DNA of 64,000 nt from Arthrobacter sp. NEB 688 (GTDB taxonomy: Bacteria; Actinomycetota; Actinomycetes; Actinomycetales; Dermatophilaceae), in assembly GCF_013201035.1 (NCBI RefSeq), contig NZ_CP053707.1:1674001-1738000 (forward strand). Direction: 5' to 3'. Below the pieces are notes generated by a model that was not told the DNA's origin, made no database searches, and saw only the letters and a list, made by a program, of their open reading frames with translations. The translations under genes and the position numbers were made by a program. Every line of letters begins with the position of its first letter. Positions within the stretch are counted from its first letter, which is position 1. This document shows, piece after piece, positions 6,691-62,547 of the stretch.

Positions 6691-6730
6691 CCCCACGGCC
6701 CACCACCGACGACGCTGGAGGACACCGCCC

Positions 6731-7924: not shown

Positions 7925-7933
7925 CGAGGCGTC

Positions 7934-10362: not shown

Positions 10363-10476
10363 CCTCGGCGGGGGTCGCGTCCGGCTGCTCCGGGGACACG
10401 CTGGGACACCGCTGTCGGGACGGACGGGGAGGGGTTACCCTCCTCGTGTACAGCGGCTTTGACAGGGGAAGGCGCC

Positions 10477-11607: not shown

Positions 11608-11628
11608 CCCGACCCGCGGTCGTCCGCG

Positions 11629-12186: not shown

Positions 12187-12261
12187 GACGCCACTGTGCG
12201 CGCGTGACGCGCCGGCGGGCAACCGATTTCACGGCCGGTACCCCCGGGGCCCGGGCGAGCG

Positions 12262-13686: not shown

Positions 13687-13881
13687 GTGACCAATCTGGC
13701 AGGGGCCACCGACAGTCCGTCAGCCCCGGACGCAGACCTGTGGACGACCGACGACCATCACCAAGGCTGTGGAAAACCGCTCTCCCGCAGCAAAGAACAG
13801 GAGTACGCGGCCGGGATCCGAACGTCGTCACGGTGGGCGCGGTGCTCCCGGGTGCACCGCCTGCCGCACCGCCTGCTGCAG

Positions 13882-17140: not shown

Positions 17141-17247
17141 CCCGGCCCTCCTGGCCCCTCGGGTGCAGCCACGGTAACCCTCGCGGCGAGGTCGCGCACC
17201 CGTCCGCCCGGGTCGTGACCGGGACCGGCCAGACCCTCTCCGATCGG

Positions 17248-18431: not shown

Positions 18432-18450
18432 GGGGGAGATGGTGGCGCGC

Positions 18451-41197: not shown

Positions 41198-43675
41198 TCA
41201 GAGTCCGAGAGTCAGTCGCGCGATCAGCTCCCGGCGACGAAGGTCGACGACTGCGAGGCCGCCCGTCGGTTCGAAGACGGTCAACAGCCCCTCGTGGATC
41301 CGTGGGTGCAGTTCCACGCCCATGGCCGTGTGGACGTGGACGCCGGCAGGCCCGGCAGCAGCCGGAAACACGGTCAGCAAAGCATCGGGCCCGGTTTCGT
41401 CGAGGAGGGCCATACCGTCTCCGACGGTGCAGAGCGTCGACTGGGGGTGGACGGTCCTGTCTGCACACGCGTGCGCTCCAGCCAAGCTGGTCACCGAAAG
41501 CCGGTCCTCGACCCTTTGCACCACCTCACCCCGTGCCGTGAGCACCATCGTGTCCTCCGGCTCAAGCAGACCCCTGCCTCTCAGCAGCGGTGACGCAACG
41601 TCCCAGTGCCAACCTTGCAGGCCCTCGGCCGAGGCGAACACCGCCGACATCGACGTGGCGGTCCGTGCGACCTGATAGATCCGCGTGCCAGGGTCCTTGA
41701 GTTCAGCCCAGCTGACTCGCCAACGGTTGTGGTGGTGCTCCAGCCACTGGATTCCGTCATCGCCGATCACGATGGGGCGGGCACCGTCGTAGGTGTCCAA
41801 AGGCGGCCCCGACCGCAACGGTGGCAGCGTGACGGGTGTGGACATCGGAAGGTCCAAGCGGTGCAGGACTTGGACGGGTCCGCGTGACCGGGCGAGGAGA
41901 ACCTGGCCTCCCCCGTCAGCCACGAGGATGCGATCGGCCGGGGTGTCCCAGCGAGCACGCACTTTGCCGCGACGGTCGAGGAGGCGCACGCCCAGTTCGC
42001 CCAGTGCCACCAGGACCGTGTTGAGACCCAGTGCGACCGCGTCGTACACGTGGGCCTGGCCATCGCCGGGCAGCTCGACCTGCACCGTGTCGACGCGCGC
42101 GTCGAGGCGTTGCGTCTGACCGCGTGGGAGGTCGGCGACCACAAGACCATCGGCGCGACGGCGAAGATCTCGGCGGACATCCATGGCCTCGCGGCTGGAC
42201 TCGAAGAGACCCGCTCTCAACGTGGCCATGACGCCGATGGTCGCGAGCTCGCGGTCCAGCACCGGGTCGGCGGTCGGCATGACAGCCAGTGCGAGGAGAA
42301 ATGCTCGGCGCTGCGGGACAGCGTCGGGGGCCTCGTCCCGTACGAGGCGTCGCGCCGCATCGGCGGCCGGCCCTCCTGGCTGGATACTCAGCAGGTGCGC
42401 CAGCATGGTGCCCGCCCGACGACCACCCAACGCCATCCCCGTCGCGATGTCTGGCAGCAGCTCATGTCTCAGGTCGCTCTCGGGCCAGCCCGCCTGGACG
42501 GCGCCGAGGGGGTCGCCTGCCTGCCTTCTCTCGGCCACCCACTCCCGCCGCAGCGCCAGCGCGGCGTCCCGATCGACCCGCTCCAGAGCCTGGACCGCGG
42601 CGGCGAAGGCGCCGCGCGCCCGGCCGACACTCACTGCGCGAGATCGGTTCCCAGCTCGCCACCACAGTCGCACGACGAGGGCCGGGGACAGCGACCAGCC
42701 CTCGGCAAGGGTCGCTGCGCGCTCGTGGACGCCGTGGCGTTCGAACAGCTCGACAGCTGCCAGCGGCTGTTGAAGCAGGTCGGCATGGACGAAGGCGGCC
42801 AGTTGCAGCTGTCCCTCGGATTCCAAGCGTCTTGCTGCTTGCCGGTAGACCTCGGAGAGGTGGGACTGCAAGGTCGGCCCGTAGGGGACGCTGCCGCCGA
42901 CCGTCGTCCGCCTGTCCGCCGGCCCTCGGACGGTGTCTCTGGGGCGCGGAAGGCGCAGGGACAGCGCGCCGCCCTCGCCGCCGAGCGCGATCGCCGACCG
43001 CAGGGCTGAGTCCCAGTCCTGCTGTTCGAACATCCTCGTGAGATCGTCGACGTAGCGCTTGTGCCGGCGACCGAGAACATCCTTGGCGGGCGTTCGCATG
43101 AGTAGCCGGACCAGCGACCATCGGGGTTCGGGCCGAGGACCTCGGCTGAAGGACCCCTGGCCGCCGCGTCGCGCGCGAACAACGCCGCGAGGTGATCCCT
43201 CGAGTTCCCTCTTCGACTTGGCAAGCGATCGGATGGCCTCGCCCACCCCGGCGTCGCTCCGGAGGTCGGGTGCCGTCGGGGTGGCGGGTGTCTCCGGGAC
43301 CGCGGTGACGTCTTCGTCCGGCAGGGCCGTAGGCGCCGGGGCGAGGATCTCGAGGACGAGATCGGCCCAACCGAGAACCGACCAGAGGTCCGCGTCCTGA
43401 AGGTGGGACGGGTCGAGCGCCTGTTGGACTCCCGCCCACGGGAAGCACAGCTTCCCACCGTCGAGGTGGACCGGTAGGCCAGGCGCACGTTCGGAACGGA
43501 TGTCAGCCGGGCTGCCCAAGAGGAGGATCAGGAGTTCATTCCATCTGAGCAGTCGGGAATCGTCCTGCCAGTGCTCCCGTATTCGACGACGCACCGTATC
43601 CGCGCCGAGTACGGAACGATCGAAAAGGAAACCGTCGCAGGGTCGTTGGCCGACGAACCATGCGTCAGTCGGCAT
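41198..43675 (-). CDS. Large helical/beta-propeller protein, bpX6-like, of a MoxR ternary system
   Basis: 825 aa. The N-terminal ~115 residues (DAWFVGQRPCDGFLF, REHWQDDSRLLRWNELLILLL) form a small domain like the bpX6 proteins of MoxR-vWA-propeller systems. A disordered linker to ~residue 190 is followed by a helical-repeat section to ~525 (RRLESEGQLQLAAFVHADLL, LPDIATGMALGG), then ~300 residues of beta-strand repeats (GLNTVLVALGELGVRLLDRRG, GGQVLLARS, GDDGIQWLEHHHNRW, GDGMALLDETG) that read as a propeller. No catalytic motif. The start overlaps the upstream stop by 11 bp. The DNA is less GC-rich than its flanks. The bpX6 label comes from recalled family text, not a search. Confidence 0.65.
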   Translation of the reverse strand: MPTDAWFVGQRPCDGFLFDRSVLGADTVRRRIREHWQDDSRLLRWNELLILLLGSPADIRSERAPGLPVHLDGGKLCFPWAGVQQALDPSHLQDADLWSVLGWADLVLEILAPAPTALPDEDVTAVPETPATPTAPDLRSDAGVGEAIRSLAKSKRELEGSPRGVVRARRGGQGSFSRGPRPEPRWSLVRLLMRTPAKDVLGRRHKRYVDDLTRMFEQQDWDSALRSAIALGGEGGALSLRLPRPRDTVRGPADRRTTVGGSVPYGPTLQSHLSEVYRQAARRLESEGQLQLAAFVHADLLQQPLAAVELFERHGVHERAATLAEGWSLSPALVVRLWWRAGNRSRAVSVGRARGAFAAAVQALERVDRDAALALRREWVAERRQAGDPLGAVQAGWPESDLRHELLPDIATGMALGGRRAGTMLAHLLSIQPGGPAADAARRLVRDEAPDAVPQRRAFLLALAVMPTADPVLDRELATIGVMATLRAGLFESSREAMDVRRDLRRRADGLVVADLPRGQTQRLDARVDTVQVELPGDGQAHVYDAVALGLNTVLVALGELGVRLLDRRGKVRARWDTPADRILVADGGGQVLLARSRGPVQVLHRLDLPMSTPVTLPPLRSGPPLDTYDGARPIVIGDDGIQWLEHHHNRWRVSWAELKDPGTRIYQVARTATSMSAVFASAEGLQGWHWDVASPLLRGRGLLEPEDTMVLTARGEVVQRVEDRLSVTSLAGAHACADRTVHPQSTLCTVGDGMALLDETGPDALLTVFPAAAGPAGVHVHTAMGVELHPRIHEGLLTVFEPTGGLAVVDLRRRELIARLTLGL

Positions 43676-48047: not shown

Positions 48048-48146
48048 ATGACGACTTCCTGACGACGACCTGAGGGCCTGGTGACGGTCGGCTGAGCGGT
48101 CGGTGACGGTCGGCTGACGGGCGCCTCACGTCTGCGTGACAAGTGG
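48048..48146 (+). promoter_or_regulatory. Nine-unit 11-bp direct-repeat array (regulator binding)
   Basis: Nine consecutive 11-mers in strict register: atgacgacttc, ctgacgacgac, ctgagggcctg, gtgacggtcgg, ctgagcggtcg, gtgacggtcgg, ctgacgggcgc, ctcacgtctgc, gtgacaagtgg. The consensus is (C/G)TGA(C/G)GGTCGG; units 4 and 6 are identical. An 11-bp same-face period suits head-to-tail binding by an OmpR/PhoB-type response regulator. It ends 94 nt before the start of the giant secreted protein. Confidence 0.6.
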
Positions 48147-48240
48147 CCTCCAGCCCTCGGCACGGAGGGGTCCCGGGCTGTCACATGGTCCGCGTGGAGC
48201 GCCGCAGGGGGCGCTCCCGAACATGCAGGGGTTGGTCGTG

Positions 48241-51200
48241 ATGCAGGGACACCACCTTGTCGACATGCAGGGCACGGACGGCGCGTCGCGTCGGTCGGGG
48301 CGCCGGCGGGCGCCGCGCGCGCTGCTCCGGCGGGCCGTCACGCTCGTGGGGTCGCTCGCGCTGACGCTGGGGTCGGCCGTCGCCGTGCCCGTGCTGACCG
48401 CGGCGCCCGCGCAGGCCGCCACGACCAACAGCGTGTCGCTGCGGGTCACGAGCGCCCGCGACGGGCTGCACCCGCCGAACGACACCGTGCGCAAGGGTGA
48501 CCCCGTCACCGGCTACCGCTACATGATCAACGTCGACGACACCGGGACCGGCGACCCCGTCGGCGCACCGACGCCCGGCTCCGGGTGCTCGGCCGACGAC
48601 GCCGGCTACCCGGCGAGCTGCACCTGGGCGTCGCTCCACGAGGTGACCGGGGCCCCCATCTACACCCAGGGCACCGCGCAGGACTTCGCGGACGGCGCCG
48701 CGCTGGACCTCCCCGACGGCCGCTACGTCGTCAGCGTCCTCGCCGACGGCTTCAAGCTCGACGGTGCGCACTTCACGGTGCCGCTGACGGCCACCGACGC
48801 CGGTCCCGGCGTCGTCGACGTCACCGTCCAGCCCGACCCGCTCGTCGACTCGACGCTGCGGGCCTTCGTCTACCGCGACGAGGGCTCGACCAACGGCGCC
48901 ATCGACAACGGCGAGGACGGCCTCGCGGGCTTCCAGGGGCACATCAACGACATCCTCGGCGAGGTCACGACCGACGTGTACGGCAACCCGCTGTGCACCC
49001 GGTACAAGAACGAGGACGCGAGCCACCAGATCCCCTGGGACGCCGCCTCGCGCGACGCCGACGGCGCCCCCATCGTCGCCACGGTCGGCGGCAAGTGCTT
49101 CAGCGACAGCACCGGCATGCTCGTCATCCCGCACCTCGGGACCAACCGCTACACGACGTGGATCAGCGCGCCGGAGGGCCAGGACTGGATCCAGACGACG
49201 ACGCTCGAGGGCAACCACGACTGGGACACCTGGCTGATGGAGGGAGCCACCGGCTACGACACCGAGTTCACCCTCGCCGGCGAGCCGGTGCCGACCCCGC
49301 AGTTCGGGTTCGTCCAGCCGAAGAACCAGCTCGGTTCCACCGCAGCCGGATCCGTCACCGGGACGATGGTCGCCGTCAAGCAGTACTACCCGCCGCGCGG
49401 TGGCAGCTTCAACCAGTACTGGGGCAGCATCGGCAGCAAGCTCGACAAGCCGATCTCGGACGGCGTCCTCTCGCTCAACGACCTCGACAGCGGCGACCGC
49501 GCCGTCTGGGTCGGCCGCGCGGCGAGCAACGGCACCTTCACGATCCCGCACGTCCCCGACGGCAACTACATGCTGACGTGGTGGGACGAGGCGCAGAACT
49601 ACATCCTCCAGCTGACCAACGTCACCGTGACCAACGGCGAGACGGTCGACCTCAGGCAGCTGCCGCTCAACGGCTGGTGGACGCCCATCTCGGGTCACGT
49701 CTTCCTCGACGCCAACAACAACGGCAAGCGCGACTCCGGTGAGCAGGGCGTCGCCCAGTTCCCGCTGACGCTGCGCAAGAAGGACAACTCGCTGATGGAC
49801 CGCGGCTCGACCGCGGCGTCGACGGACAGCGCCGGCTACTACGAGTTCCCGAGCGGCTACCCGCTCGCCGAGTGGCTCGTGCTCGAGGCGTACTCCGACA
49901 GCTTCTACACGACCGGGATCACCTACCAGGCCGACAACCAGCCGACGCCGACGACCGTCAAGGGCTCGGGCGTCGACGTGAGCGTCCTGCCGATCATCGG
50001 CCTCGGCGGCACCGTCGACTGGGGCGTCCAGAAGTACGACGCGACGGGCCGCACCAGCCGCCCGCGCAACGGCGGCATCGTCGGGTCGGTCTCGTACGAC
50101 ACCACCCGCAACGAGCTCGACCCGCAGTACGCGGCGACGGAGGACTGGCAGCCCGGTATCTCCGACGTCCCGGTCAAGCTCTACGCCCCGGTCCGGTGCG
50201 GCACGAACGCCGGCACCCCGTGCGACGCGAGCGGCACCTACGAGCTCGCCCCCGACGGCTCCTACGCCAAGGGGAAGCTGCTCAACTCCTACGTCTCCGA
50301 GCGCTGGAGCCGACCGACCGGCTGCACCGCGCGGGACGCCGACGGCGTGGCCTACGCGCACGGCACCGACGAGAACGTCACCGCGCACGACCAGGACACC
50401 ACGGGCGAGTGCATCTCGGCCCTCGTCCAGGGCTTCCAGGTGGGCACGTACGCCACCGACCAGGGCACCGCCGACGCGAGCTTCGGTGCGGCGGTGGACG
50501 GCAACTACGGCTTCGGCGACGCGTGCACCGGGACGCTCGACGCCCACGACCCGGCGAACCCCTCCTGCACCAGCACCTTCGCGCCGCTGGCCGCCGGTGA
50601 CTACCTCGTCTCCGTCGACGTGCCGAAGGACGCCCGCGGGCGCCCGATGTACGACGTGACCTCGGAGGAGGACATCAACATCGGACGCGGCGACCAGGTC
50701 GTGCCGCAGGTCCCGCCGCCCGCGTGCGTCGGTGCGCTGCACACGGTCGACGTCAAGGACGTCGCCGACGACGGCTACGCCGCGCGGTCGGGGACGGCCG
50801 ACGGGCTGCCGGCCGGCGTCAGCGTCCCGGCCTCGACCTCGGTCGACAACGCGACCTTCGCCGACATCGGCGGGTCCCCCTACGAGGGGATGGTCAAGCC
50901 GCGCTGCGACACCAAGCTCGTGAGCCTCAACAACGGCAAGTCGATCGTGCCGATGTTCCACCTGTTCACCGACGTCCCGGTGCCCTCGCGGATGCGCGGC
51001 ATCGTCGTCGACGACCTCAACTACTCGACGGACAAGCGGACCGTGCTCTTCGGCGACAAGGCCGGCCTGGCGAACGCCCCCGTCGGCATCTACGACTTCG
51101 CCGGCGACCTCAAGTACACGGCGCACTCGGACTACAACGGTTCCTACGACGTCCTCATGCCGTCGACCGACCACATCAGCTGCCCCACGCCCTCCGGTGT

Positions 51201-54200
51201 GTGCCAGGGGATGTACCGCTTCGTCGGCAACGACCCGGGCGTCCCCGGCGCCCTCAACGCGGACTACAACCCGCGCTTCCGGACGATCGCCACCGAGTTC
51301 GAGGCGACGCCCGGTGTGACGATCCCGACCGACCTCGCACCCACCCAGGTGGGGGTCAGCCTCGGGACGCCCGGCACGAGCCCGACGACGGTCAAGTGCC
51401 TGGTCAACCCGGTCCGGCCGCAGCTGCTGTCCGTCGACAAGCCGGTGCTCACCCCGGCCGACACGACCACGGCCCAGCGGCGGGTCACCCTCGAGGGCAC
51501 CGGGTTCGGCGCCACGCGGGGGACCGGCTCCGTGCGGCTCGGCTCCACCGCGCTGACGGTGGCGAGCTGGAGCGACACGAGGATCCAGGTCGACGTCCCG
51601 GCCGCCGGGTCGGGCACCGGGCAGGTGCCGGCCGGGTCGCTGCAGCTGGCCGTCACCGCCGGCAACGGGCTCGCGTCCGTCACCGGGCTGTCCTTCCAGC
51701 TCCTCGGCGCCGTCACCACGACGAGCTCCTACCTCCCGACGGTCTACCGGGTCGGGCCGGGCGCGGCCGTCGCGAAGTACGACCCCACCAGCGCCGCGAG
51801 CCAGACGGGCACCGCCGGTGTCCCGCACGCGATCCAGAACGCGATCGACGACGCGGTGCGGGCCGGTGGCAACGCGGTGGTCGTCGTGTACCCCAACACC
51901 CCGACGACCACGAACCCGCGTGGCGCGTACTACGAGAACCTCGTGGTCAACGGCCCGGTCAAGCTGCAGGGCGTCGGGGCCGGAGGCTTCCGGGGCAGCG
52001 GCAGCACCGCGACCTGGGTTCCCGGGTCCGTCGTCGACGGCAGCGCCTTCGGCGGTGACACCGACCTCGCGACCGACTGGTTCACCAAGGTGGGATCGCT
52101 CGACTGGTCGGGCAACCAGACCGTGAGCGACGGCGCCGTCGTCTACCTCCTCGGCTCGGCCGGCGGCTCGTCCACCGTGCGGACCTACCCCCTCGGCGCC
52201 GCGTTCAAGCCGGCCGTCGACGGGTTCGACCTGCGCGGCGGCGACCAGACGGGCTTCCCCGGCAACATCAACGACCTCACCGGGCAGGCGACCGGCCTGC
52301 CGCCGAACATCACGACGCAGGGTGGTGCGGTGTTCGCCAACGCCTACGTGCGTGAGCTCCAGGTGACCAACAACGTCGTCGAGAACAACGGCGGCGGGTA
52401 CGGCACCATCCGCGTCGGCACCCCCGACCTCACCGGGGCCGACGAGAGCCAGCACAACGAGAACCTCCGGATCGCGAACAACCGGATCGTGCAGAACGCC
52501 GGCACGAACTACGCCGGGGCGATCGGCCTCTTCGCCGGCACCGACGGGTACGAGGTGTCGGGCAACGAGATCTGCGGCAACTTCTCGCTGGAGTACGGCG
52601 CGGGCATCACCCACCTCGGGTACAGCCCGAACGGCCGGATCCACCACAACCGGATCACGCTGAACAACTCCAACGACGAGGGCGCGGGGATCATGGTCGC
52701 CGGTGCGCTGCCGGCCGACCCGACGACCCTGTCGCACGGCGCCGGCGCGGTCGAGATCGCCGCCAACGAGATCCAGGGCAACCTCGCCAACGACGACGGC
52801 GGCGGCATCCGCTTCCTCATGGCGGGCAACTACCGGATGTCGGTGCACGACAACGTCATCACCAGCAACGTCTCGACCCACGAGGGTGCCGGCATCGCCA
52901 TCGACGACGCCCCCGACGTCCGGATCGTCAACAACACGATCATGGACAACATCACGACCGCGACGGCCGTCACCTCCGACGGCTCGGCGGCCCCGTCCGG
53001 CATCGCCACGGGGCAGAACAGCGACCAGTTGCAGGCAACCCTGCCGCCCGGCTCGCCGACCGCCAGCACCCCGGTCCTGCTCGACAACGTCCTGTGGAAC
53101 AACCGCGCCGGCACCCGGGCGGGCACCACCGTCACGGGCATCGGCCTGGGCGGCGCGGGCGACGTCGAGACCTGGGACGTGGGGTCGCTCGACCCGACGG
53201 TCTCGCTGGCCCCGGTGGGGTCGGTCCTCCAGCAGGACCCGGCGCTCCACCCGTACACGGACGCGGCCTCCAACCGCCACGCCGACCCGAAGGTGGTCCG
53301 CACCTGGCCGGTCTCGGTCTCGTTCGCCACCTGGCGGCAGAACCCGGCCTTCGTCGACGCGAACATCGCGGTCGTCGAGGTCCCGGCCGACCTCATGGGC
53401 GACTACCACCTCCTCGGCTGCGGCGCGGGCCAGTCGCCCGCGTGCGACATCGGCCTCGCCTCCGCGGGCGGTGCCTCGGTCGCGACGGTCGACATCGACG
53501 GTGACGCCCGCCCGGCGACGACGGCCGACCCGGTGGACGCCGGCTCGGACGAGGTGCCCCGCGTGCCGCCGCCGCCGCCCCCGCCGCCGTCGTTCGACTT
53601 CTCGATCACCGGTACCGGGACCATCCCGGGCGTCGCCGGCACGGCCAACGGCTCGGACGTCCACCACTACGACGGCGTGACCAACGCCTACTCGCGGCTG
53701 GTCGACGTGCAGGCGACGCCGCGGCCCGGCCTGCCCACGACCGCCCTCGTCGACGGTCTCGCGGTCGTGGACGCGACGCACTTCTACGTGTCGTTCGCCG
53801 AGAACACCTCCGTCCCCGGCATCGGCACGGTGCAGGACGAGGACGTGGCCTACTACAACGCCGGGACGTGGTCGGTGTGGTTCGACGGCACCGCCCGGGG
53901 CCTGACGACGGCGGCGCTCGACATCGACGCGATCTCGGTCAAGGGCGGCGTCCTGTCGTTCTCGACGACCGGCAACGCCAACCCGCCGGGCGTGACGGGA
54001 ACCGCCGACGACGCCGACGTCTACAGCTGGAACGGCAGCAGCTTCAGCCGGGTCTGGGACGCCACGACGAAGGGCGTCCCCGGGACGGCCCGGGTCGACG
54101 GAGCCGTCTACGACACACCGACCCACGCGTGGTTCTCGTTCTCCGGCAACCTCACCGTGGCCGGCCTCGGCACCGTCCAGGACGAGGACGTCCTCGAGTA

Positions 54201-54348
54201 CACCAACGGGACGTGGAAGGTCTGGTTCGACGGCACGTCGCACGGGCTGACCACGGACGGCCTCGACATCGACGCCTTCTCGCTCCCGGGCACCACGACC
54301 ACGACGACCACCGCCCTCCGCGCGCTCACCACCAAGGGGACCCGATGA
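48241..54348 (+). CDS. Giant secreted right-handed beta-helix protein
   Basis: 2035 aa. Twin-Arg-rich leader and signal peptide cleaved near residue 59 (AAPAQA-ATTN). Then carboxypeptidase-regulatory/SdrD-B-like modules (LRAFVYRDEGSTNGAIDNGEDG about residue 205; ISGHVFLDANNNGKRDSGEQG about 480), an IPT/TIG domain (~1060-1155) and a parallel beta-helix (~1165-1755) with an Asn ladder (ITNN-like: LRIANNRIVQNAG, RIHHNRITLNNS, VEIAANEIQGN, MSVHDNVITSN, VRIVNNTIMDN). A PPPPPPPP linker (~1778) leads to two C-terminal repeats with VDATHFYVSF, GTVQDEDV and GTW..WFDGT. Start chosen at ATG 48241 after AGGGG; in-frame ATGs at 48223 and 48265 are alternatives, and the GTG at 48136 lies in the operator. 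The ATGA overlap couples it to the first cupredoxin gene. No LPXTG. Role unknown; the beta-helix suggests a surface or polysaccharide-binding scaffold. Confidence 0.85.
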   Translation: MQGHHLVDMQGTDGASRRSGRRRAPRALLRRAVTLVGSLALTLGSAVAVPVLTAAPAQAATTNSVSLRVTSARDGLHPPNDTVRKGDPVTGYRYMINVDDTGTGDPVGAPTPGSGCSADDAGYPASCTWASLHEVTGAPIYTQGTAQDFADGAALDLPDGRYVVSVLADGFKLDGAHFTVPLTATDAGPGVVDVTVQPDPLVDSTLRAFVYRDEGSTNGAIDNGEDGLAGFQGHINDILGEVTTDVYGNPLCTRYKNEDASHQIPWDAASRDADGAPIVATVGGKCFSDSTGMLVIPHLGTNRYTTWISAPEGQDWIQTTTLEGNHDWDTWLMEGATGYDTEFTLAGEPVPTPQFGFVQPKNQLGSTAAGSVTGTMVAVKQYYPPRGGSFNQYWGSIGSKLDKPISDGVLSLNDLDSGDRAVWVGRAASNGTFTIPHVPDGNYMLTWWDEAQNYILQLTNVTVTNGETVDLRQLPLNGWWTPISGHVFLDANNNGKRDSGEQGVAQFPLTLRKKDNSLMDRGSTAASTDSAGYYEFPSGYPLAEWLVLEAYSDSFYTTGITYQADNQPTPTTVKGSGVDVSVLPIIGLGGTVDWGVQKYDATGRTSRPRNGGIVGSVSYDTTRNELDPQYAATEDWQPGISDVPVKLYAPVRCGTNAGTPCDASGTYELAPDGSYAKGKLLNSYVSERWSRPTGCTARDADGVAYAHGTDENVTAHDQDTTGECISALVQGFQVGTYATDQGTADASFGAAVDGNYGFGDACTGTLDAHDPANPSCTSTFAPLAAGDYLVSVDVPKDARGRPMYDVTSEEDINIGRGDQVVPQVPPPACVGALHTVDVKDVADDGYAARSGTADGLPAGVSVPASTSVDNATFADIGGSPYEGMVKPRCDTKLVSLNNGKSIVPMFHLFTDVPVPSRMRGIVVDDLNYSTDKRTVLFGDKAGLANAPVGIYDFAGDLKYTAHSDYNGSYDVLMPSTDHISCPTPSGVCQGMYRFVGNDPGVPGALNADYNPRFRTIATEFEATPGVTIPTDLAPTQVGVSLGTPGTSPTTVKCLVNPVRPQLLSVDKPVLTPADTTTAQRRVTLEGTGFGATRGTGSVRLGSTALTVASWSDTRIQVDVPAAGSGTGQVPAGSLQLAVTAGNGLASVTGLSFQLLGAVTTTSSYLPTVYRVGPGAAVAKYDPTSAASQTGTAGVPHAIQNAIDDAVRAGGNAVVVVYPNTPTTTNPRGAYYENLVVNGPVKLQGVGAGGFRGSGSTATWVPGSVVDGSAFGGDTDLATDWFTKVGSLDWSGNQTVSDGAVVYLLGSAGGSSTVRTYPLGAAFKPAVDGFDLRGGDQTGFPGNINDLTGQATGLPPNITTQGGAVFANAYVRELQVTNNVVENNGGGYGTIRVGTPDLTGADESQHNENLRIANNRIVQNAGTNYAGAIGLFAGTDGYEVSGNEICGNFSLEYGAGITHLGYSPNGRIHHNRITLNNSNDEGAGIMVAGALPADPTTLSHGAGAVEIAANEIQGNLANDDGGGIRFLMAGNYRMSVHDNVITSNVSTHEGAGIAIDDAPDVRIVNNTIMDNITTATAVTSDGSAAPSGIATGQNSDQLQATLPPGSPTASTPVLLDNVLWNNRAGTRAGTTVTGIGLGGAGDVETWDVGSLDPTVSLAPVGSVLQQDPALHPYTDAASNRHADPKVVRTWPVSVSFATWRQNPAFVDANIAVVEVPADLMGDYHLLGCGAGQSPACDIGLASAGGASVATVDIDGDARPATTADPVDAGSDEVPRVPPPPPPPPSFDFSITGTGTIPGVAGTANGSDVHHYDGVTNAYSRLVDVQATPRPGLPTTALVDGLAVVDATHFYVSFAENTSVPGIGTVQDEDVAYYNAGTWSVWFDGTARGLTTAALDIDAISVKGGVLSFSTTGNANPPGVTGTADDADVYSWNGSSFSRVWDATTKGVPGTARVDGAVYDTPTHAWFSFSGNLTVAGLGTVQDEDVLEYTNGTWKVWFDGTSHGLTTDGLDIDAFSLPGTTTTTTTALRALTTKGTR

Positions 54349-55751
54349 CCAGCCTCGACCCGCGGCGCGGTGCCGCGACCACCCGTGAGCGGACCGACAC
54401 CCGGGGGATGACCCGGCGCCGGGCCCTCGGCCTGGCGGGCAGCGCCGTCGCCGTGGCCGGCGTCGGGTCCTGGGCCGGTCGGGTCCTCGCCCCGGAGCAG
54501 GTGGCCTCGGCGAGCGACGCCCCGCCGAACCTCTACCTGGCCGGCACCGACGGGTGGATCCACCTGCCGCCGACCCCGGCCATCCCGCCCTACCACCCGG
54601 ACCCGCTCGCTCCGGGCGGAGGGGCCACGACGTACGTCTTCGGCTTCCGCAACGTCACCGGGATGAGCGACGTGCAGCGCCTCGGGCAGAAGTACCACGC
54701 CCAGCACTCGGCGCCGCTCTTCTGGGTCGACGAGTACGACGGCGACCCGGCGCACGAGTTCCGGGTGCGGCTGACCAACCTCGGCCTCGAGCTGCGCCCC
54801 GACCTCTTCGACGCGCACACCCTGCACTGGCACGGCTTCCGCAACGTCATCCCGTTCTTCGACGGGGAGCCGAGCGGCTCGGTGTCCGTGCGGGCCGGCG
54901 GCGAGTTCACCTACGTCTACCGGCCGCGCGACCCCGGGACGTACATGTTCCACTGCCACGTCGAGGACGTCGAGCACGTGCACATGGGCATGACCGGAAT
55001 GGTCTTCGTGCGGCCGAAGCAGAACGGGCAGAGCAAGACCCACGACGGCCGCACCTACACGAGCTTCCTCTACAACGACGGCGACGGCAGCACCGGCCAC
55101 GACCGCGAGTTCTCGATGTTCCTCTCCGAGGTCTGGGCCGAGGCGCACTGGGCGGACGCGCACATCCAGCTGCCGGAGTGGAGCGACTACCGGGCGGACT
55201 TCGCGCTCCTCAACGGGCGCGTCCACCCCGACACGCTCGCCCCGAACGGCCCCGGGGTCGACGCGTTCGACGTCGCCGAGGGCCGCACCTTCGACGCCGA
55301 CGGCGACCTCATCGCGCCGCCGGGACGACCGGACCTGAAGTACCAGCCGATCTCGTCGCTCGTCACGTGCGTCGAGGGCGAGCGGGTCGCCCTGCGCTTC
55401 GCCAACCTCGGCTTCCGGGAGGCGGCGATGACCGTCGCGGGCCTGCGGATGCGCGTCGTCGGCCGCGACGCGACGCCGATGCGCGGACGCACCGGTGCCG
55501 ACACCTCGTACGAGACCGACACGCTGAACATCGGCCCGGGCGAGAGCTACGACGTGCTCGTCACCGCCCCGCCGAAGACGGGGTCCGGCGACTACGACAC
55601 CTACCTCCTCTACAACCGGTCGTTCACCCGCTCCGACAACCTCGCTCCCGGAGGCCTCGGCGGACAGGCGACGGAGATCAGGGTCTACGCCGACGGGCCC
55701 GGAGCGCCTGCGGCACAGTCCTTCCCGAACGACTGGGGGTTCTCGGCATGA
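54345..55751 (+). CDS. Tat-exported multicopper-oxidase-like protein A (domain-1 ligands only)
   Basis: 468 aa. Tat signal TRRRALGLAGSA at residues ~23-34. Cupredoxin domain 1 has HWHG (His161, His163) and HCHVEDVEHVHMGM (His203, Cys204, His205, His211/213, Met214/216), that is two trinuclear-site HxH motifs plus a type-1 Cys/His/Met, as in two-domain oxidases with T1 in domain 1. Domain 2 (VALRFANLGFREAAMTVAGLRM) lacks the usual HPxHxHG and C-terminal HxH. Starts at ATG overlapping the giant gene stop (ATGA); its own stop overlaps the next gene. Alone it should not assemble a complete trinuclear site. Confidence 0.85.
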   Translation: MTSLDPRRGAATTRERTDTRGMTRRRALGLAGSAVAVAGVGSWAGRVLAPEQVASASDAPPNLYLAGTDGWIHLPPTPAIPPYHPDPLAPGGGATTYVFGFRNVTGMSDVQRLGQKYHAQHSAPLFWVDEYDGDPAHEFRVRLTNLGLELRPDLFDAHTLHWHGFRNVIPFFDGEPSGSVSVRAGGEFTYVYRPRDPGTYMFHCHVEDVEHVHMGMTGMVFVRPKQNGQSKTHDGRTYTSFLYNDGDGSTGHDREFSMFLSEVWAEAHWADAHIQLPEWSDYRADFALLNGRVHPDTLAPNGPGVDAFDVAEGRTFDADGDLIAPPGRPDLKYQPISSLVTCVEGERVALRFANLGFREAAMTVAGLRMRVVGRDATPMRGRTGADTSYETDTLNIGPGESYDVLVTAPPKTGSGDYDTYLLYNRSFTRSDNLAPGGLGGQATEIRVYADGPGAPAAQSFPNDWGFSA

Positions 55752-57076
55752 CCACCGACCAGCGATCCGTCCGACGCGGCCTGCGCCGCGGCGCGGTCCT
55801 CGCCACCGGCGCGCTCGTCGCGCTCGCCGGGGCCGTCGCCCCCGGCGCCGCCTCGGCCGGGGCGGCCACGCCGCCCCGCAACGGCATCGTCTGCACGACG
55901 GGTGGGCCCGGCGCCGCCGACCACCACCCCGTCTTCGACCTGACGACCCGCACCGGCTACATCGACCTGCCGGACGGCAACACGGCCTACATGTGGGGCT
56001 ACTCGAGCGGCTTCGACGACTTCCAGCACCCCGGTCCCGTCCTCTGCGTCACCGAGGGTGACGTCGTGACGGTCATCCTCCACAACACGCTCGACGTCCC
56101 CGCGTCGGTCGTCTTCCCCGGCCAGGACGACGTGCTCGCCGACGGCGTCCCGTCGCAGCCGCAGACCGGGTCCGGAGGCTTCATGACCAGCCTCGCGCAG
56201 CCGGCCACGGCGCAGACCGGGACCGTCACCTACAGCTTCACGGCCGGTCACGCCGGGACCTTCCTCTACGAGTCCGGGACCGACCCCGAGACCCAGGTGC
56301 GGATGGGCCTGTTCGGGGCGCTCGTCGTCCGCCCGTCGCTCGGGCCGGACTACGCCTACGACTACGCCGACACGCAGTTCGAGCCGACCGAGGAGTTCAT
56401 GGTCCTGCTCTCCGAGATCGACCCGTACCAGCATGCGGCCGTCGAGCAGGGCAAGCCCTTCGACCTCACCCGCTACAAGGCCCGGTACTGGCTGATCAAC
56501 GGGCGCGGCTACCCCGACAGCATCGCCGACAACGGCGCCTCGTGGCTCCCGTCGCAGCCCTACGGCTCCCTCGCCACCGTCAAGCCCTACGACCCGGTGA
56601 CGCACCCCCGCTCGGGGATGGCGCGCTACCTCAGCGTCGGCAGCGAGGACTACCCGTTCCACCCCCACGGCAACAACGGGCTCGTCGTCGGGCGCGACGG
56701 CCGGCCCCTGCGGGCGCAGTCCAGCGGGCACGAGGACCTCTCGATGGAGAAGTTCGCCGTGAACATCGGCCCGGGCCAGACGTGGGACGTGCTCTTCCGG
56801 TGGAAGGACGCCGAGGACTACAGCGTCGCGAACCCGGTGACCGTCACCGTCCCCAGCCTGGCCAACCAGGTGGTCGGCACGTTCTACAGCGGGAGCCCCT
56901 ACCTCGGGAACACCCACGACCTGCCACCGGGCGTCCAGACGCTCAACCAGTGCGGCGAGTTCTACATCATCTCGCACAACCACGCCCTCTTCCAGATCAC
57001 CTCCTGGGGCGTGAACATGACCGGCCCGATCACGTACATGCGGATCGAGCCCCCCGAGCCCAACACCTGTCCGTGA
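55748..57076 (+). CDS. Exported multicopper-oxidase-like protein B (domain-2 ligands only)
   Basis: 442 aa with an N-terminal export signal (LRRGAVLATGALVALAG, cleavage near ASA-GAA). Domain 1 keeps the fold (GTFLYESG, RMGLFGALVV) but has VFPG where HWHG should be and YESG where HCH should be. Domain 2 has FHPHGNN (His305, His307) and ISHNHALFQ (His410, His412), the two HxH motifs that protein A lacks. ATGA overlap with protein A gene. The complementary ligand sets suggest a heteromeric oxidase with protein A. Confidence 0.83.
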   Translation: MTTDQRSVRRGLRRGAVLATGALVALAGAVAPGAASAGAATPPRNGIVCTTGGPGAADHHPVFDLTTRTGYIDLPDGNTAYMWGYSSGFDDFQHPGPVLCVTEGDVVTVILHNTLDVPASVVFPGQDDVLADGVPSQPQTGSGGFMTSLAQPATAQTGTVTYSFTAGHAGTFLYESGTDPETQVRMGLFGALVVRPSLGPDYAYDYADTQFEPTEEFMVLLSEIDPYQHAAVEQGKPFDLTRYKARYWLINGRGYPDSIADNGASWLPSQPYGSLATVKPYDPVTHPRSGMARYLSVGSEDYPFHPHGNNGLVVGRDGRPLRAQSSGHEDLSMEKFAVNIGPGQTWDVLFRWKDAEDYSVANPVTVTVPSLANQVVGTFYSGSPYLGNTHDLPPGVQTLNQCGEFYIISHNHALFQITSWGVNMTGPITYMRIEPPEPNTCP

Positions 57077-57090: not shown

Positions 57091-60000
57091 ATGACGAAGC
57101 ACCTGCGCACAGCCGCTCTCTCGACGCTCGGTGGCGGGGCCCTGGTCGCCCTCGGCCTGCTGTTCGGGCCGGTCGGGACGGCGAGCGCCGCCGACGTGGA
57201 CATCCACCTGGAGGCGACGAGCGGCACGACGAGCCTGCCGTCCAAGAGCGGGCCGGTCACGGTGCCGGTCTGGGGCTACTGCGTCCGCCCGGACGCCGGG
57301 ACGGCCTGCGGGCCGCTCGAGCGCCCCGGTGGGCCGACGCTGACCGTCGACGAGGGCGACCACGTGACGATCACGCTGCACGACGCCCTGACCGAGCGCA
57401 CCTCGCTGCTCCTCGGTGGCCAGCAGATGGTGCCGGACACCCAGGGTGCGGCCGCCGGCGGCGAGCGCACCTACACCTTCACCGCCTCGCGCCCCGGCAC
57501 CTACCTCTACCAGGCCGGACCCACCGGGAACTTCCAGCACCAGGTCGCGATGGGGCTCTACGGCGCGCTCGTCGTGCGTCCCGCGACGGCCGGACGCGCC
57601 TACGACGACGCGGCCTCGGCCTACGACACCGACCAGGTCCTCGTCGTCGGCGAGCTCGACCCCGCGCTCAACACGGCGAACGACCCCGCGGCCTTCGACA
57701 TGCGGAAGTTCTCCGCGGCCTACGAGCTCGTCAACGGCCGGGTGCACCCGGACACCCAGCCCGTCGTCGCCGCCTCCGGCCAGGAGGTCCTCCTGCGCTG
57801 GGTCAACGCGGGGGTCGGCTACCACTCGATGGCCGTGCTCGGCGCCGACCAGCGCGTCATCGCCTACGACGGCAGCCGCCTGCTCAACGACGGTGGCGCA
57901 CTGGACATCTCGCGGAGCCTGGTCGCCGACACCTTCGGCCCGGGGCAGACCGCGGACGCGATCGTCCACGTGCCGACGACGACCACCGACCGGCGCCTGG
58001 CCGTCTACGACGCCGGGCTCGGCCTGCACAGCGGCACGGCCGCGAAGGCGGGCGGGGCGCTCACCTTCATCGAGGTGGCCGCCTCCGGCGCCGCCGTCGA
58101 CAACACCGGGCCGGTGACCAGCGGGGCCCGCTGGGACGCCGGCTCGCTGTCGGCCGACGTCAGCGACGAGACGACCGGCGGCGGCACCGTCGAGGCCGTC
58201 GAGTACCTCGTCGACACGACCGTCGGCAGCGGGACCGCCATGACCGGCACCTTCGGGACGAGTCCGGTCCACGTGACGGCCGCGTACGACGTGCCGGCCG
58301 GCCCGCACGTGCTCTACGTCCACGGCCGCGACGCCGACGGCGCGTGGGGCCCGTGGAGCTCGGTCCTCGTCCAGGGCAGCGACACCGTCGGGCCCTCGAC
58401 GACGGGTCTCGAGCTGACCCCGGACCACACGAACGGCGCTGCCGCGGTCGCGCTGTCCGCCACCGGCAACGACTCGGCGACGGGCAACCACGAGATCGCC
58501 GCGGCGGAGTGGTCCGTCGACGGCGGCGCCGCGAGCCCGATGACCGTCGCGACGAGCGGTCCGGTGGCCAGCCTCACGGCCACCATCCCGGCCGGTGCCC
58601 TCTCCGGGCTCGCGGACGGCCTGCACACCGTCGGGGTCCGCTCGCGCGACAGCGCCGGCGCCTGGGGGCCGGTCTCGGGCGTCCAGCTCGCGGTCGACCG
58701 CGCGGCGCCGGTGGCGAGCGGCCTCTCGCTCTCGCCGAACCCGAACAACGGGACCCTCGCGATCAGCTCCACGACCCCGGCGGTCCGTCTCGTGGCGACG
58801 CTCACCGACGAGATGACGGGCGACGGCGCCGGGTTCGACCCGGTCCAGAGCGTCGTCGACCGCGGCGAGGTGTTCCTCGACACCGTCGGGCCCACCGGCA
58901 GCGGCATCCCGGTGGAGGCGTCGGACGGCGCGTTCTCGACGAGCACGGAGAACGTCTACCTCGACATCCCGCTCGCGACCGTGCGCCAGCTGTCCGCCGG
59001 CACCCACAAGGTCTGGGTGCGCGGGCACGACGCCGCGGGCAGCTGGGCGACGCCCGTCTCGGTCGACCTCGTCATCGACAAGACGGCCCCGACCCTGGCG
59101 GCCTTCTCGGTCTCCGCGAACCCCACGGCCGGCGCGACCCGCGTCACCGTCACGGGGGGAGCGGGCACCATCGGCGCCGACCCCTCCGGCTTCGGGCTCG
59201 TCGAGGTCTTCGCGGGCGCCGACCCCGGTGTCGGCAAGGGGACCGCGGTCTCCCGCAACGCCGACGGGTCGTTCAGCGCGACGCTGCCGGTCGACCGGGT
59301 GGCCGAGGGAGCGACGACCGTGCGGCTGCGCGTCCGGGACGGCGCCGGCAACACGGCCACCCGCTCGGCGCCCCTGACCGTCACGCACCCGCTGTGGTTC
59401 ACGACGAACCCCGCGGTCGCCCCGACCGGCGTCCCGGCCCCGGCCCGCACCACGGACGTGTTCCGGTGGGACGGAGCGGCGGCGAGCAAGGGCTACCAGC
59501 TCTCCACGCTCGGGGTGCCGGCCACGGCGGACGTCGACGGTTTCGCCCGGGTGGACGCGACGCACTTCTACGTGTCGTTCTCCAACCCGAGCGTCACGGT
59601 CACCGGGCTCGGGGCGGTCAACCCCCGCGAGGTGATCTACCGGGACGGCACCACGTGGCGCCGCTGGTTCAACGGCGCGAGCGCGGGCATCGTCGCGACC
59701 GCCAACGTCGACGCCATCGACGTGGTCGGCAGCTGGCCGAGCCCCACGCTGTACGCCTCGGTCAGCACCTTCGCGGTGCCGGGCGGCGCCGCGACCGGTG
59801 GCACCGGCAGCCCGTCGGACGTCTACCGGTGGAACGGCGGCAACGCCTGGACGCGGGTCGTCGACGCGTCGACGATCGGGATCCCGGACGCCGCCAACAC
59901 GGACGGCTTCGTGTGGCTCGGCGCCGACGACTGGGCGTTCTCGTTCGCCGCCACCACCACCCGGGTCACCGGGCTCACCGCCCTCGTCGCCGACGAGGAC

Positions 60001-60102
60001 GTCGTCCGCCGGACCGCCGGCACGTGGTCGACGTACTTCGACGGCTCCACCCACGGGCTCGGCGGCACGAACGTCGACGTCGACGCGGTCGACCTGCCCT
60101 GA
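57091..60102 (+). CDS. Exported cupredoxin-fold protein C with Ig-like and C-terminal repeats
   Basis: 1003 aa. Signal peptide cleaved near residue 33 (GTASA-ADV). Residues ~35-330 follow the same two-cupredoxin plan as protein B (GTYLYQAG, MGLYGALVVRP, YELVNGRVHPDTQ) but no HxH copper motif remains. Residues ~345-765 hold several Ig/Big-like modules opening DNTGPVTSG, DTVGPSTTGLEL, DRAAPVASGLSLSPNPNNG and DKTAPTLAAFSV. Two C-terminal repeats (VDATHFYVSF, VADEDVVRR, GTWSTYFDGS) match those ending the giant protein. Strong ribosome site GAGAGGGGA; 14 nt after gene B. Probably a structural partner or adhesin of the A/B oxidase. Confidence 0.8.
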   Translation: MTKHLRTAALSTLGGGALVALGLLFGPVGTASAADVDIHLEATSGTTSLPSKSGPVTVPVWGYCVRPDAGTACGPLERPGGPTLTVDEGDHVTITLHDALTERTSLLLGGQQMVPDTQGAAAGGERTYTFTASRPGTYLYQAGPTGNFQHQVAMGLYGALVVRPATAGRAYDDAASAYDTDQVLVVGELDPALNTANDPAAFDMRKFSAAYELVNGRVHPDTQPVVAASGQEVLLRWVNAGVGYHSMAVLGADQRVIAYDGSRLLNDGGALDISRSLVADTFGPGQTADAIVHVPTTTTDRRLAVYDAGLGLHSGTAAKAGGALTFIEVAASGAAVDNTGPVTSGARWDAGSLSADVSDETTGGGTVEAVEYLVDTTVGSGTAMTGTFGTSPVHVTAAYDVPAGPHVLYVHGRDADGAWGPWSSVLVQGSDTVGPSTTGLELTPDHTNGAAAVALSATGNDSATGNHEIAAAEWSVDGGAASPMTVATSGPVASLTATIPAGALSGLADGLHTVGVRSRDSAGAWGPVSGVQLAVDRAAPVASGLSLSPNPNNGTLAISSTTPAVRLVATLTDEMTGDGAGFDPVQSVVDRGEVFLDTVGPTGSGIPVEASDGAFSTSTENVYLDIPLATVRQLSAGTHKVWVRGHDAAGSWATPVSVDLVIDKTAPTLAAFSVSANPTAGATRVTVTGGAGTIGADPSGFGLVEVFAGADPGVGKGTAVSRNADGSFSATLPVDRVAEGATTVRLRVRDGAGNTATRSAPLTVTHPLWFTTNPAVAPTGVPAPARTTDVFRWDGAAASKGYQLSTLGVPATADVDGFARVDATHFYVSFSNPSVTVTGLGAVNPREVIYRDGTTWRRWFNGASAGIVATANVDAIDVVGSWPSPTLYASVSTFAVPGGAATGGTGSPSDVYRWNGGNAWTRVVDASTIGIPDAANTDGFVWLGADDWAFSFAATTTRVTGLTALVADEDVVRRTAGTWSTYFDGSTHGLGGTNVDVDAVDLP

Positions 60103-60172: not shown

Positions 60173-60685
60173 ATGAGCACCGCAGCCGCCACCGCCCCCG
60201 TCCGGCCCACCCCCGAGACCCCGGAGCCGCGCGCTCGGCGACGTCTCCTGCTGCTCGCCGCCCTCGTCGTCCTCGCCCTCGCGGCCACGCTCGGCGTGCG
60301 CGCCGTCATGGCCCACGCCGACGACGTCCGGTCGGGCACCGAGGCCGTCTCCGCCGAGGCGTTCGCGAGCCGGACCGGCGCCAAGATCACGCTCCTCGGG
60401 GTGACCGGGGGAGGCGGGATGGTCGAGCTGCGCTACCAGGTGACCGACCCCGACAAGGCGAGCCTGCTGCTGCACCAGGAGGACAAGCGGCCGGTCCTCG
60501 TCGTCGAGGACACCGGGGCCGTCCTCGCGATGGTCTCGCGCCCCCACAACCACAAGGCCGAGCTCACCCTCGGCGGCACCTACTTCTTCCTCATGGCCAA
60601 CACGCGCAACGCCCTCCACGACGGCACACGGGTCACCGTCATCGTCGGGGACGTCCGGCTCGAGCACGTGGTGGCGCAGGCGTGA
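60173..60685 (+). CDS. Membrane-anchored His-containing protein of the copper locus
   Basis: 170 aa. One TM helix (LLLLAALVVLALAATLGVRAV) and an extracytoplasmic beta-rich domain. RPHNHKAELTLGGTYFFLM has a His-x-His pair suited to copper binding; MVELRYQVTD and DVRLEHV flank it. GGAGG ribosome site. Overlaps the CopC-CopD gene (GTGA). No named family recognised. Confidence 0.72.
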   Translation: MSTAAATAPVRPTPETPEPRARRRLLLLAALVVLALAATLGVRAVMAHADDVRSGTEAVSAEAFASRTGAKITLLGVTGGGGMVELRYQVTDPDKASLLLHQEDKRPVLVVEDTGAVLAMVSRPHNHKAELTLGGTYFFLMANTRNALHDGTRVTVIVGDVRLEHVVAQA

Positions 60686-62547
60686 GCGGGCGGCGGCGCG
60701 GGAGCGGCCCGGGGGCACGGCGGGCCGTGCTGCCGGCGGTGCTCGCGCTGCTCGCGCTCCTGCTCCTCGCGCCGGCCGCCTCGGCCCACGCGACGCTCGA
60801 GCGGTCGGACCCCCCGAACGGCGGGATGGTCGCGACCGGCCGGACCTCGCTCACCCTGTGGTTCGGCGAGGACATCGCGCCCGCCGCGAGCAGCATCAGC
60901 CTCGAGGGCGCCCAGGGCCGGGTCCCCGTGACCGTGACGGTGGAGCCGGGGGATCGGGTCGTCCACGTCGCCACCCCGCCCCTGACGCGCGGCACGTACA
61001 CCGTCACCTGGGCGGTCGTCGCCGCCGACGGGCACCCGACCCGGGGGACCCTCGTCTTCGGGAGCGGCTTCCGCCCGGACGGGCTGCCGGAGGCCGACAG
61101 CCCCCTGCCACCGGTCACGCCCGTCCTCCTGCGCGCGCTCGACCTCGCCGGGACGCTCGTCGCGCTCGGGGCCCTGCTCGCCGTGCGTCGGGTCGTCCCG
61201 GCGCTCGGTGCGCTCGCCGGCCCGACCCGTCGCCGGGTCGTCCGGGCCGGTGCGCTCGGGGCGACCCTCGCGCTCGTCGCCGCGCTGGCGACGCCGCTCG
61301 TCACGACGACGACGCAGACGGGGGCCGCGGTGGGGTCGGGGGAGTGGGTGGCCGCGCTCGGCGACGTGCTGCTCGACAGCACGTGGGGTCGGCTGTGGCT
61401 GTTGCGGCTCGCGCTCCTCGCCCTGGCCTACGCGGCCCTCTGGCGGGGCCGTCTCGGGCTCGCCGGCGCGGGGCTCGTCCTGGCCGTGGCCCTCGACGGG
61501 TGGGCCGGGCACGCCTCGGCCCTGCCGAGCGGCGTCCTCGTCGCGTGGGTCGCGGCCACGCTCCACGTGCTCGCGGCCGGGGCCTGGGCCGGCGCCCTGC
61601 TCGTCCTGGCCGTCACGCTGCGCCCGCTGGCGCGGGTGGACGGGCCGGACCGCGGCCCGCTCGTGCTCGACGCGTGGCGGGCCTTCAGCCCGGCTGCCGC
61701 CGTCTCCTCGCTCGTGCTCCTCGCGACCGGGCTCTACGAGGCGGGGGTGCACGTCGCGACGTGGCCGGCCCTCCTGCGCGGGGTCTACGGTCCCGCGGTC
61801 CTCGGCAAGGTGCTCGTCGTCGCCGTCGCGCTCGCGCTCGCGGCGTGGAACACGGTGCTGGTCAACCCGCCGGTCGCCCACCGGGTCGGACGGCTCCTCG
61901 GGCTCGGACGGAGCTGGCGGCCCTCGACCCGGCGGCTGCGCACGACCGTGCTCGTCGAGGCCCTCGTCCTCGTCCTCGCGGTCGGGCTCGCCGCCCTCAT
62001 GACGGCCGTCCCGACCGCGCGCGAGGTGACCGCGGCCCGCTCCGCCGACGCCCCGCAGAGCGCTCGCGCCGACGGCGTCTTCGTCACGGTCGACGCGGTC
62101 CCCACCGGTGACCGGCTGCGGCTCGTCGTCCGGGCCCAGCCCGTCGTCCGCCCGGTCGGCGCGCCGGTCACCGGGGTCGACGTCGCGGTGTCCGACGGTG
62201 TCGTCACGGCCCCGACATCGGCGGGCACGGACCGGGTCGCGCTCTCGCGCACCGAACCCGGGCGCTGGGAGGCGACCGTCGCCGACCCCGGAACGCGCGA
62301 CTGGACCGTGGAGGTCCTGCTCCACCGCGCCGGTGCCCGCACCACCGTCGTCCTCGTCCCGTGGAGCAGCGCCCCCGAGCGGTCGGGGCTGGGCACGGCC
62401 GCGACCTCGGCCTCCCTCGTCCTGCTGGCCGTGCTCGCCACGGCGCTCGGGTGGGCCCGCCTGCGCCGTCGCCGGGCCGACCCGCCGGAGCCCACGGGCC
62501 CCGCGCCCGCCGTCGTCCCCGTCCTCGAGGAGGTGGGTCGCCGATGA
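60682..62547 (+). CDS. CopC-CopD fusion, copper import protein
   Basis: 621 aa. Signal peptide ends ASA, leaving HATLERSDPPNG as the mature CopC N-terminus, so His1 is the Cu(II) ligand; ADGHPTRGT supplies the other Asp/His ligands. A linker leads to a CopD membrane domain of about eight helices (from LALGALLAVRRVV near residue 155 to ~450) and a C-terminal periplasmic domain with a final TM. It should bind copper outside and move it across the membrane. GTG start; stop overlaps the subtilisin start (ATGA). Confidence 0.9.
   Translation: MSGRRRGSGPGARRAVLPAVLALLALLLLAPAASAHATLERSDPPNGGMVATGRTSLTLWFGEDIAPAASSISLEGAQGRVPVTVTVEPGDRVVHVATPPLTRGTYTVTWAVVAADGHPTRGTLVFGSGFRPDGLPEADSPLPPVTPVLLRALDLAGTLVALGALLAVRRVVPALGALAGPTRRRVVRAGALGATLALVAALATPLVTTTTQTGAAVGSGEWVAALGDVLLDSTWGRLWLLRLALLALAYAALWRGRLGLAGAGLVLAVALDGWAGHASALPSGVLVAWVAATLHVLAAGAWAGALLVLAVTLRPLARVDGPDRGPLVLDAWRAFSPAAAVSSLVLLATGLYEAGVHVATWPALLRGVYGPAVLGKVLVVAVALALAAWNTVLVNPPVAHRVGRLLGLGRSWRPSTRRLRTTVLVEALVLVLAVGLAALMTAVPTAREVTAARSADAPQSARADGVFVTVDAVPTGDRLRLVVRAQPVVRPVGAPVTGVDVAVSDGVVTAPTSAGTDRVALSRTEPGRWEATVADPGTRDWTVEVLLHRAGARTTVVLVPWSSAPERSGLGTAATSASLVLLAVLATALGWARLRRRRADPPEPTGPAPAVVPVLEEVGRR

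Follow-up and report, generated by a model that had tools for sequence, protein, structure and literature searches.

According to the available sections of PMC13151041, two-domain multicopper oxidases are divided into types A, B and C, and their trinuclear copper site forms where domain 1 of a subunit meets domain 2 of its neighbour. In the six-domain proteins ceruloplasmin, hephaestin and MnxG, one trinuclear site lies at the interface of domains 1/6 or 2/3, and it has been suggested that a triplication with later site loss connects the two-domain with the six-domain proteins (PMC3600357, available text). The Mnx complex, MnxE3F3G, provides an example of a multicopper oxidase that needs other subunits (PMC5622069, available text), and a set of three tandem genes for predicted extracellular multicopper oxidases, accompanied by a mofC-like (cytochrome c) gene and a copper chaperone gene, was reported in 2017 from Sideroxydans lithotrophicus ES-1 (PMC5566968, available text); the accessible part of PMC8218464 gives context for MofA only. 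None of the open-access papers listed by our searches was seen to describe trinuclear ligands that are split between different genes. The present study examined a stretch of 64,000 nucleotides from Arthrobacter sp. NEB 688 (NZ_CP053707.1, positions 1,674,001 to 1,738,000; hereafter the window), a genome of 4.08 Mb on one contig, in which two overlapping genes, here called A and B, encode two-domain multicopper oxidase homologues that carry complementary halves of the copper ligands and are followed by a ligand-free paralogue, C.

Complementary copper ligands in A and B

Gene A (54,345–55,751, plus strand) encodes 468 residues with a twin-arginine-type signal and two cupredoxin-like domains that match the Pfam families Cu-oxidase_2, Cu-oxidase_3 and Cu-oxidase, and gene B (55,748–57,076, plus strand) encodes 442 residues with two cupredoxin-like domains that match Cu-oxidase_3, with Cu-oxidase_2 below its Pfam cut-off. 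A preliminary description of this stretch had placed both genes correctly and had noted their ATGA coupling, in which the A stop codon TGA (55,749–55,751) overlaps the B start codon ATG (55,748–55,750). His-any-His (HxH) motifs occur in A at residues 161 (HWH), 203 (HCH) and 211 (HVH) and in B at residues 305 (HPH) and 410 (HNH), and none occurs across the 1003 residues of C (57,091–60,102, plus strand). Domain 1 of A holds a type-1 (T1) copper set, H158, C204, H211 and M216, together with four trinuclear His, H161, H163, H203 and H205, in the segments H158-T-L-H161-W-H163 (54,816–54,833, plus strand) and H203-C204-H205 ... H211 ... M216 (54,951–54,992, plus strand); domain 2 of A has no ligands. 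Domain 2 of B holds H305 and H307 (H305-P-H307, 56,660–56,668, plus strand) and H410 and H412 (H410-N-H412, 56,975–56,983, plus strand), and domain 1 of B has none. The role of each ligand is one that we assume by homology to known multicopper oxidases, and the division between the two proteins, which had been the core of the preliminary description, is borne out by sequence and conservation alike.

Conservation was counted in 79 A and 81 B sequences from the window and 80 loci of named genomes, which were taken from 91 relatives found by a pattern scan and include some of the same strains as 17 loci fetched from the family; two loci lack A at a contig end. Residues H158, H161, H163, C204 and H205 of A are each present in 78 of 78 sequences with a residue at that position, H203 in 77 of 78, and H211 and M216 in 79 of 79, and in B the counts are 81/81 for H305/H307 and 80/80 for H410/H412. 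The 17 family loci show no variation at any of the twelve ligand positions. Judged from the six commonest residues per column, B and C have other residues at the columns of the A ligands, as do A and C at the columns of B H305/H307, the exceptions being one of 81 B sequences, with His at the H203 column, and some B and C sequences with Met at the M216 column; no A or C residues align to B H410/H412.

Because HPHG is part of one of the two patterns by which the named loci were found, H305/H307 were partly selected for; 21 of the 80 loci have a B protein without this pattern, and both HxH motifs are still kept in all 21. Eight loci came from whole-profile searches (one of them, L157, is apparently the same record as L096, and in another, L156, B is interrupted by masked bases), and among these the HxHG and HCH motifs of A and the first HxH of B are present in 8/8 and the second HxH of B in the 6/6 whose contig reaches it. 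The same split is seen in a divergent locus, L155 (HSVHWHG and WHCH in A, HPMHHHG and FHSH in B). On the megaplasmid of Cupriavidus metallidurans CH34 (L143), A has HTVHFHG and WHCH, B has HPFHEHG and WHSH, and the third protein has no HxH in its first 450 residues. As controls, type-B two-domain oxidases from two of the Chloroflexota genomes that also contain A-B-C (L135–L139) have both half-sets in each chain (5/5), as does the type-C-like L141 from a methanotroph genome; the fetched piece of a further control, L140, ends before the last motif. Since ordinary oxidases carry both halves per chain, the split marks the A-B-C family, and we regard it as confirmed that the complementary division of ligands between A and B is real and more than chance.

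Other residues of the two proteins are conserved as well. B has an odd number of conserved Cys, with positions 49 and 100 kept in 81/81 sequences and 402 in 80/80, and Cys342 of A is kept in 15 of the 17 family loci; a disulfide between the subunits is possible on the basis of these residues. Two His between the domains of A, H268 (78/79) and H273 (79/79), are not expected copper ligands and could possibly form a site for a substrate metal.

Predicted contacts between the domains

To score covariation, the A, B and C proteins of 94 loci were paired, and 75 rows were kept after dropping those with at least 25% gaps or at least 95% identity to a kept row, giving an effective number of about 30 rows at 70% identity. 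Mutual information with a background correction was compared with a null of 60 alignments simulated along the inferred tree, each site having its own rate and frequencies. Pairs between domain 1 of A and domain 2 of B (A1-B2) made up 48 of the top 100 inter-subunit pairs in a first run and 42 in the run matched to the simulations, for which the null had a mean of 12.5 and a maximum of 27, so that none of the 60 simulations was as high; the opposite contact, A2-B1, took 7 of the top 100 against a null of 8.2, which is no excess. The strongest A columns, 166–178, follow HWH, and the B columns include 407–430 around HNH and 254–261. Columns within 16 residues of a ligand made up 83% of the A columns in the A1-B2 pairs, compared with 40% of all columns, and 67% of the B columns, compared with 37%. 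Row clustering separated the alignment into 74 rows and one, and without the outlier A1-B2 took 49 of the top 100 as an observed value outside the matched simulations. The A1-B2 signal stands above a phylogeny-only null but rests on few columns.

A structure of A, B and C together was predicted with AlphaFold from locus L042, whose three genes lie in one frame with single stops between them and were read through as one chain, using an alignment of 50 rows. Single C rows were left out of this alignment (in a 69-row set they, like L102, had aligned on the wrong part), and C was represented by five full rows and three B-C rows. The model has a mean predicted local distance difference test score (pLDDT) of 81, a predicted template-modelling score (pTM) of 0.83 and disordered linkers. 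In Foldseek comparisons it aligned with ceruloplasmin over its length but with a query-normalised template-modelling score (TMq) of 0.21, no more than a single unit reaches (3g5w, 0.21), and with the three-domain Thermus laccase 2xu9 at a target-normalised score (TMt) of 0.71 over 743 columns. From these scores, which we read as three superposed domains across a span that would suit domain 1 of one subunit set on domain 2 of the next gene product, we infer that the model probably sets A1 on B2, in a ring that runs A-C-B. A second chain comprising A and B was modelled from L064, whose B is 79% identical to that of the window, with 74 rows and a pTM of 0.85. The models match the two-domain oxidases 2zwn and 3g5w at TMt 0.74–0.78.

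Several results weigh against a trinuclear site shared by A1 and B2 in a ring with C. Counted within 10 residues of a ligand, the A columns are not enriched (0.29 versus 0.29), and when the three strongest A columns are removed the A1-B2 count is 23 against a null mean of 12.4, which one of the 60 simulations reaches. The A2-B2 pairs also exceed their null, with 67 of the top 300 against 41.2 (reached by 1/60) and 192 of the top 1000 against 132.5 (0/60), an excess that a ring does not directly predict, and we detected no covariation tying C to A or B, with B1-C2 taking 2 and A2-C1 taking 3 of the top 100 pairs. Furthermore, the A-B model matches ceruloplasmin at TMq 0.45–0.47 (compared with 0.30 for the single subunit 2zwn) and the factor VIII chain 4bdv_A at TMt 0.62, which suggests two consecutive units with A2 on B1, an arrangement that would part the ligands. 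Confidence is low in parts of the copper loops of A, with block means of 62, 58 and 49 over residues 101–130 of the A-B-C model and of 54 (residues 111–120) and 57 (residues 151–160) in the A-B model. On whether the A and B His pairs lie on distant surfaces, which the preliminary description had named as the observation that would count against it, the two models differ by their Foldseek scores: the A-B-C model fits a shared site and the A-B model appears to be joined by the other face. The covariation and the A-B-C model carry more weight with us, as we assume that the predictor is drawn towards a consecutive order by six-domain proteins that are single chains.

A conserved operon and its distribution

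The preliminary description saw a two-gene enzyme and overlooked the third gene and a conserved operon. C starts 14 bases after the B stop codon and matches Pfam Cu-oxidase_3 and Big_13; its ligand-free two-domain oxidase part covers about residues 36–335 and is followed by immunoglobulin-like (Ig-like) repeats and then by a C-terminal part that it has in common with D, as found by blast. Gene D (48,136–54,348, plus strand), upstream of A, encodes about 2070 residues from the start as called, with Pfam SdrD_B, CarboxypepD_reg and TIG modules and a weak beta-helix match. Downstream of C lie F (60,173–60,685, plus strand; 170 residues), which has one hydrophobic N-terminal segment by eye and for which a Pfam search gave no family above cut-off, and a CopC-CopD fusion (60,682–62,547, plus strand; Pfam CopC and CopD), a putative copper-handling protein. 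The small F protein is possibly a new accessory protein of copper enzymes. Elsewhere in the window, on the minus strand at 41,198–43,672, is a protein with a Pfam match to bpX6, a domain of the MoxR-vWA-beta-propeller ternary system.

Within the family, a B match below 1e-100 was found in 17 of 149 genomes, at 18 places, and A, B and C lie side by side in all 17 loci fetched. The system is rare in the wider genome samples: among 396 genomes of the phylum, 3 have a B match at 1e-30, with A below 1e-160 in 5 of 197 genomes of the class, and B at 1e-12 in 7 of 398 genomes of the phylum of a Methylobacter genome, two of which (the Methylobacter genome itself and G957) fall below 1e-70. By their record titles, the 80 named loci come from Actinomycetota, Chloroflexota, Methylobacter and other Pseudomonadota, and one 'Deltaproteobacteria' metagenome-assembled genome. 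No phage relatives of A were found at 1e-10, and plasmid relatives of B at 1e-20 were limited to divergent ones in eight Cupriavidus and Paraburkholderia records.

A is present in 78, B in 80 and C in 78 of the 80 named loci, and all four gaps are at contig ends, with only low-scoring pieces of C left before the contig end in L068 and L070. Order and strand are the same in 75 of the 76 named loci with all three genes; the exception is L071, where the fetched locus ends within C and another C-like open reading frame (ORF) is found elsewhere. C follows B wherever the fetched piece reaches that far, and A and B are separate ORFs in the loci scanned. In 13 whole genomes, which were chosen for having B, 14 orthologues of A were found, each with another match immediately downstream at the place of B; what is informative here is that G709 has a second copy and that no orphan A occurs.

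Across the 81 loci (the 80 and the window), matches to the beta-helix part of D were found in 71, to F in 67 and to CopC-CopD in 30, many loci being too short to hold all of them, and D lies upstream of A in the loci taken as examples. By size and position, D, A, B, C and an F-sized gene follow in order in five of six such loci. Among the neighbours in these five are subtilases (L039, L042 and L051), SCO1 (L042), weak matches to cytochrome c (L039 and L047) and CopC-CopD (L078); in the sixth, L030 (Cryobacterium breve, 1,548–14,250), D and C are each in two ORFs and A and B are intact. The divergent L155 also has D, A, B, C and F in order. In CH34 the gene order is as elsewhere, with C-like and D-like parts joined in one protein of 2698 residues (10,536–18,632; blast E 1e-11 to 4e-26), and D and C resemble each other from locus to locus in about 230 residues at their C-terminal ends; together, the related C-termini and the joined protein hint that C and D work together. 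Just upstream of the CH34 genes (3,361–6,542) are a secretin gene and two pseudopilin genes, possibly for a dedicated exporter. The twin-arginine motif of A is present in 72 of 74 sequences with enough upstream sequence, the other two reading SRRAIL, and this signal and the copper-related neighbours point to an exported, copper-loaded surface enzyme.

In a tree of 42 rows (LG+C20), A, B and C each form one branch, with support of 100/100, 100/98 and 100/99, respectively; B groups with C at 100/99, and all three stand apart from ordinary oxidases at 97/92. The tree is rooted at its midpoint and has long branches and one row of odd composition (C_L046), and it fits one early triplication better than repeated splitting. 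By sequence, the closest solved structures to A are the two-domain oxidases 2zwn and 3g5w and those to B are two-domain laccases, matched through domain 1.

The proposed enzyme among known multicopper oxidases

We propose that A, B and C descend as paralogues from one ancestral two-domain multicopper oxidase and have divided its labour among them. A would keep the substrate-oxidising T1 copper and the four trinuclear His of domain 1, B would keep the other four in domain 2, and C would keep none. Domain 1 of A would dock on domain 2 of B such that the eight His hold a trinuclear cluster that reduces O2 to water, with electrons entering at the T1 copper of A, and C would most likely close the ring through copper-free B1-C2 and C1-A2 contacts. 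The product would be an A:B:C pseudo-trimer with one active site, located beyond the cytoplasmic membrane; D and F would be its partners at the surface, CopC-CopD or SCO1 proteins would deliver the copper, and the substrate would be a cell-surface phenol or metal ion. We give this proposal a probability of somewhat under four in five; copper binding, catalysis, the place of C as third ring member, the substrate and the roles of D, F and CopC-CopD are the parts of it that go beyond the observed genes. The ligand split argues against a working homotrimer. The preliminary description's idea of one trinuclear centre from A domain 1 and B domain 2 agrees with the near-invariant complementary ligands, the constant pairing of A and B, and the A1-B2 covariation, and is incomplete in leaving out C; in place of the A/B hetero-trimer or hexamer that it envisaged, an A:B:C assembly is likelier, since a ligand-free paralogue follows B. 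A fuller version, in which an A:B:C heterotrimer descended from a type-C ancestor has one O2-reducing A/B centre, a copper-free third subunit and a giant surface scaffold in D (joined to C in Cupriavidus) and serves as a widespread but rare extracellular metal oxidiser, seems to us an even bet.

The likeliest rival concerns the membership of C in the ring. An A:B heterodimer or an A3B3 ring could have the trinuclear site by itself, with C a separate surface or anchoring protein that bears a dead oxidase domain; the want of covariation between C and either partner, the long Ig-like tails of C and its union with a D-like part in CH34 would all suit such a role, but C groups with B in the tree, follows B wherever the pieces reach, and folds confidently in the A-B-C chain, and we consider an outlying C unlikely. 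A more modest function, in which A is an electron-transfer cupredoxin with T1 copper only and B is its copper-binding partner without any trinuclear cluster, draws on the facts that the cluster is deduced from sequence and that the A-B model seems to use another face. All eight trinuclear-type His are kept, however, although those of A could drift if only the T1 site mattered, and the A1-B2 covariation is a further point against a mere electron carrier, which we judge very improbable. Least credible of all, to the point of being nearly discounted, is a decayed tandem duplication whose copies are degenerating and form no enzyme: ligands are indeed absent from C and from half of A and B, and L030 has its D and C broken in two, but the frames are open, the remaining ligands are near-invariant, and the genes are found in several phyla with B identities of 43–82%.

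The proposed A:B:C enzyme can be set against its nearest described relatives. The type-C two-domain oxidases, among which we count mgLAC (2zwn) and the Nitrosomonas blue copper oxidase (3g5w) on the basis of aligned sequences, resemble A in having the T1 copper in domain 1, a layout that among the three proteins is found in A only. A, B and C each have the two cupredoxin domains per chain of a two-domain oxidase, but none of them has both half-sets of ligands in its chain; 2zwn and 3g5w are homo-oligomers with the full set in every chain, whereas here the halves are on different genes and C has neither. In the Mnx complex, only MnxG is a multicopper oxidase, and MnxE and MnxF, of about 12 kDa, are unlike characterised proteins, in contrast to three paralogous oxidase genes. 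The Sideroxydans ES-1 trio is closer in that some A-B-C loci also have cytochrome c or SCO1 nearby; the available text of PMC5566968 gives no ligand analysis and no shared site, and that the trio is the same cluster as A-B-C is a guess.

With ceruloplasmin, hephaestin and MnxG, the A:B:C assembly would share three two-domain units and a single, here predicted, trinuclear site. The six-domain oxidases differ in being one chain, with T1 copper in domains 2, 4 and 6 or in domain 2, where A, B and C are three genes. The unit order of ceruloplasmin appears to be followed by the A-B model (TMq 0.47), and the A-B-C model scores against it as one unit alone does (TMq 0.21). If the proposal is correct, a heteromer that retains just one site would stand as a natural, never-fused counterpart of the six-domain proteins, and site loss need not wait for fusion. 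Anyone reading one chain at a time would take A and B for broken enzymes, and the placement of one copper cluster on two genes makes for a clean genetic test. The enzyme would then be much like a ceruloplasmin left in three pieces, but with the copper layout of a type-C two-domain oxidase.

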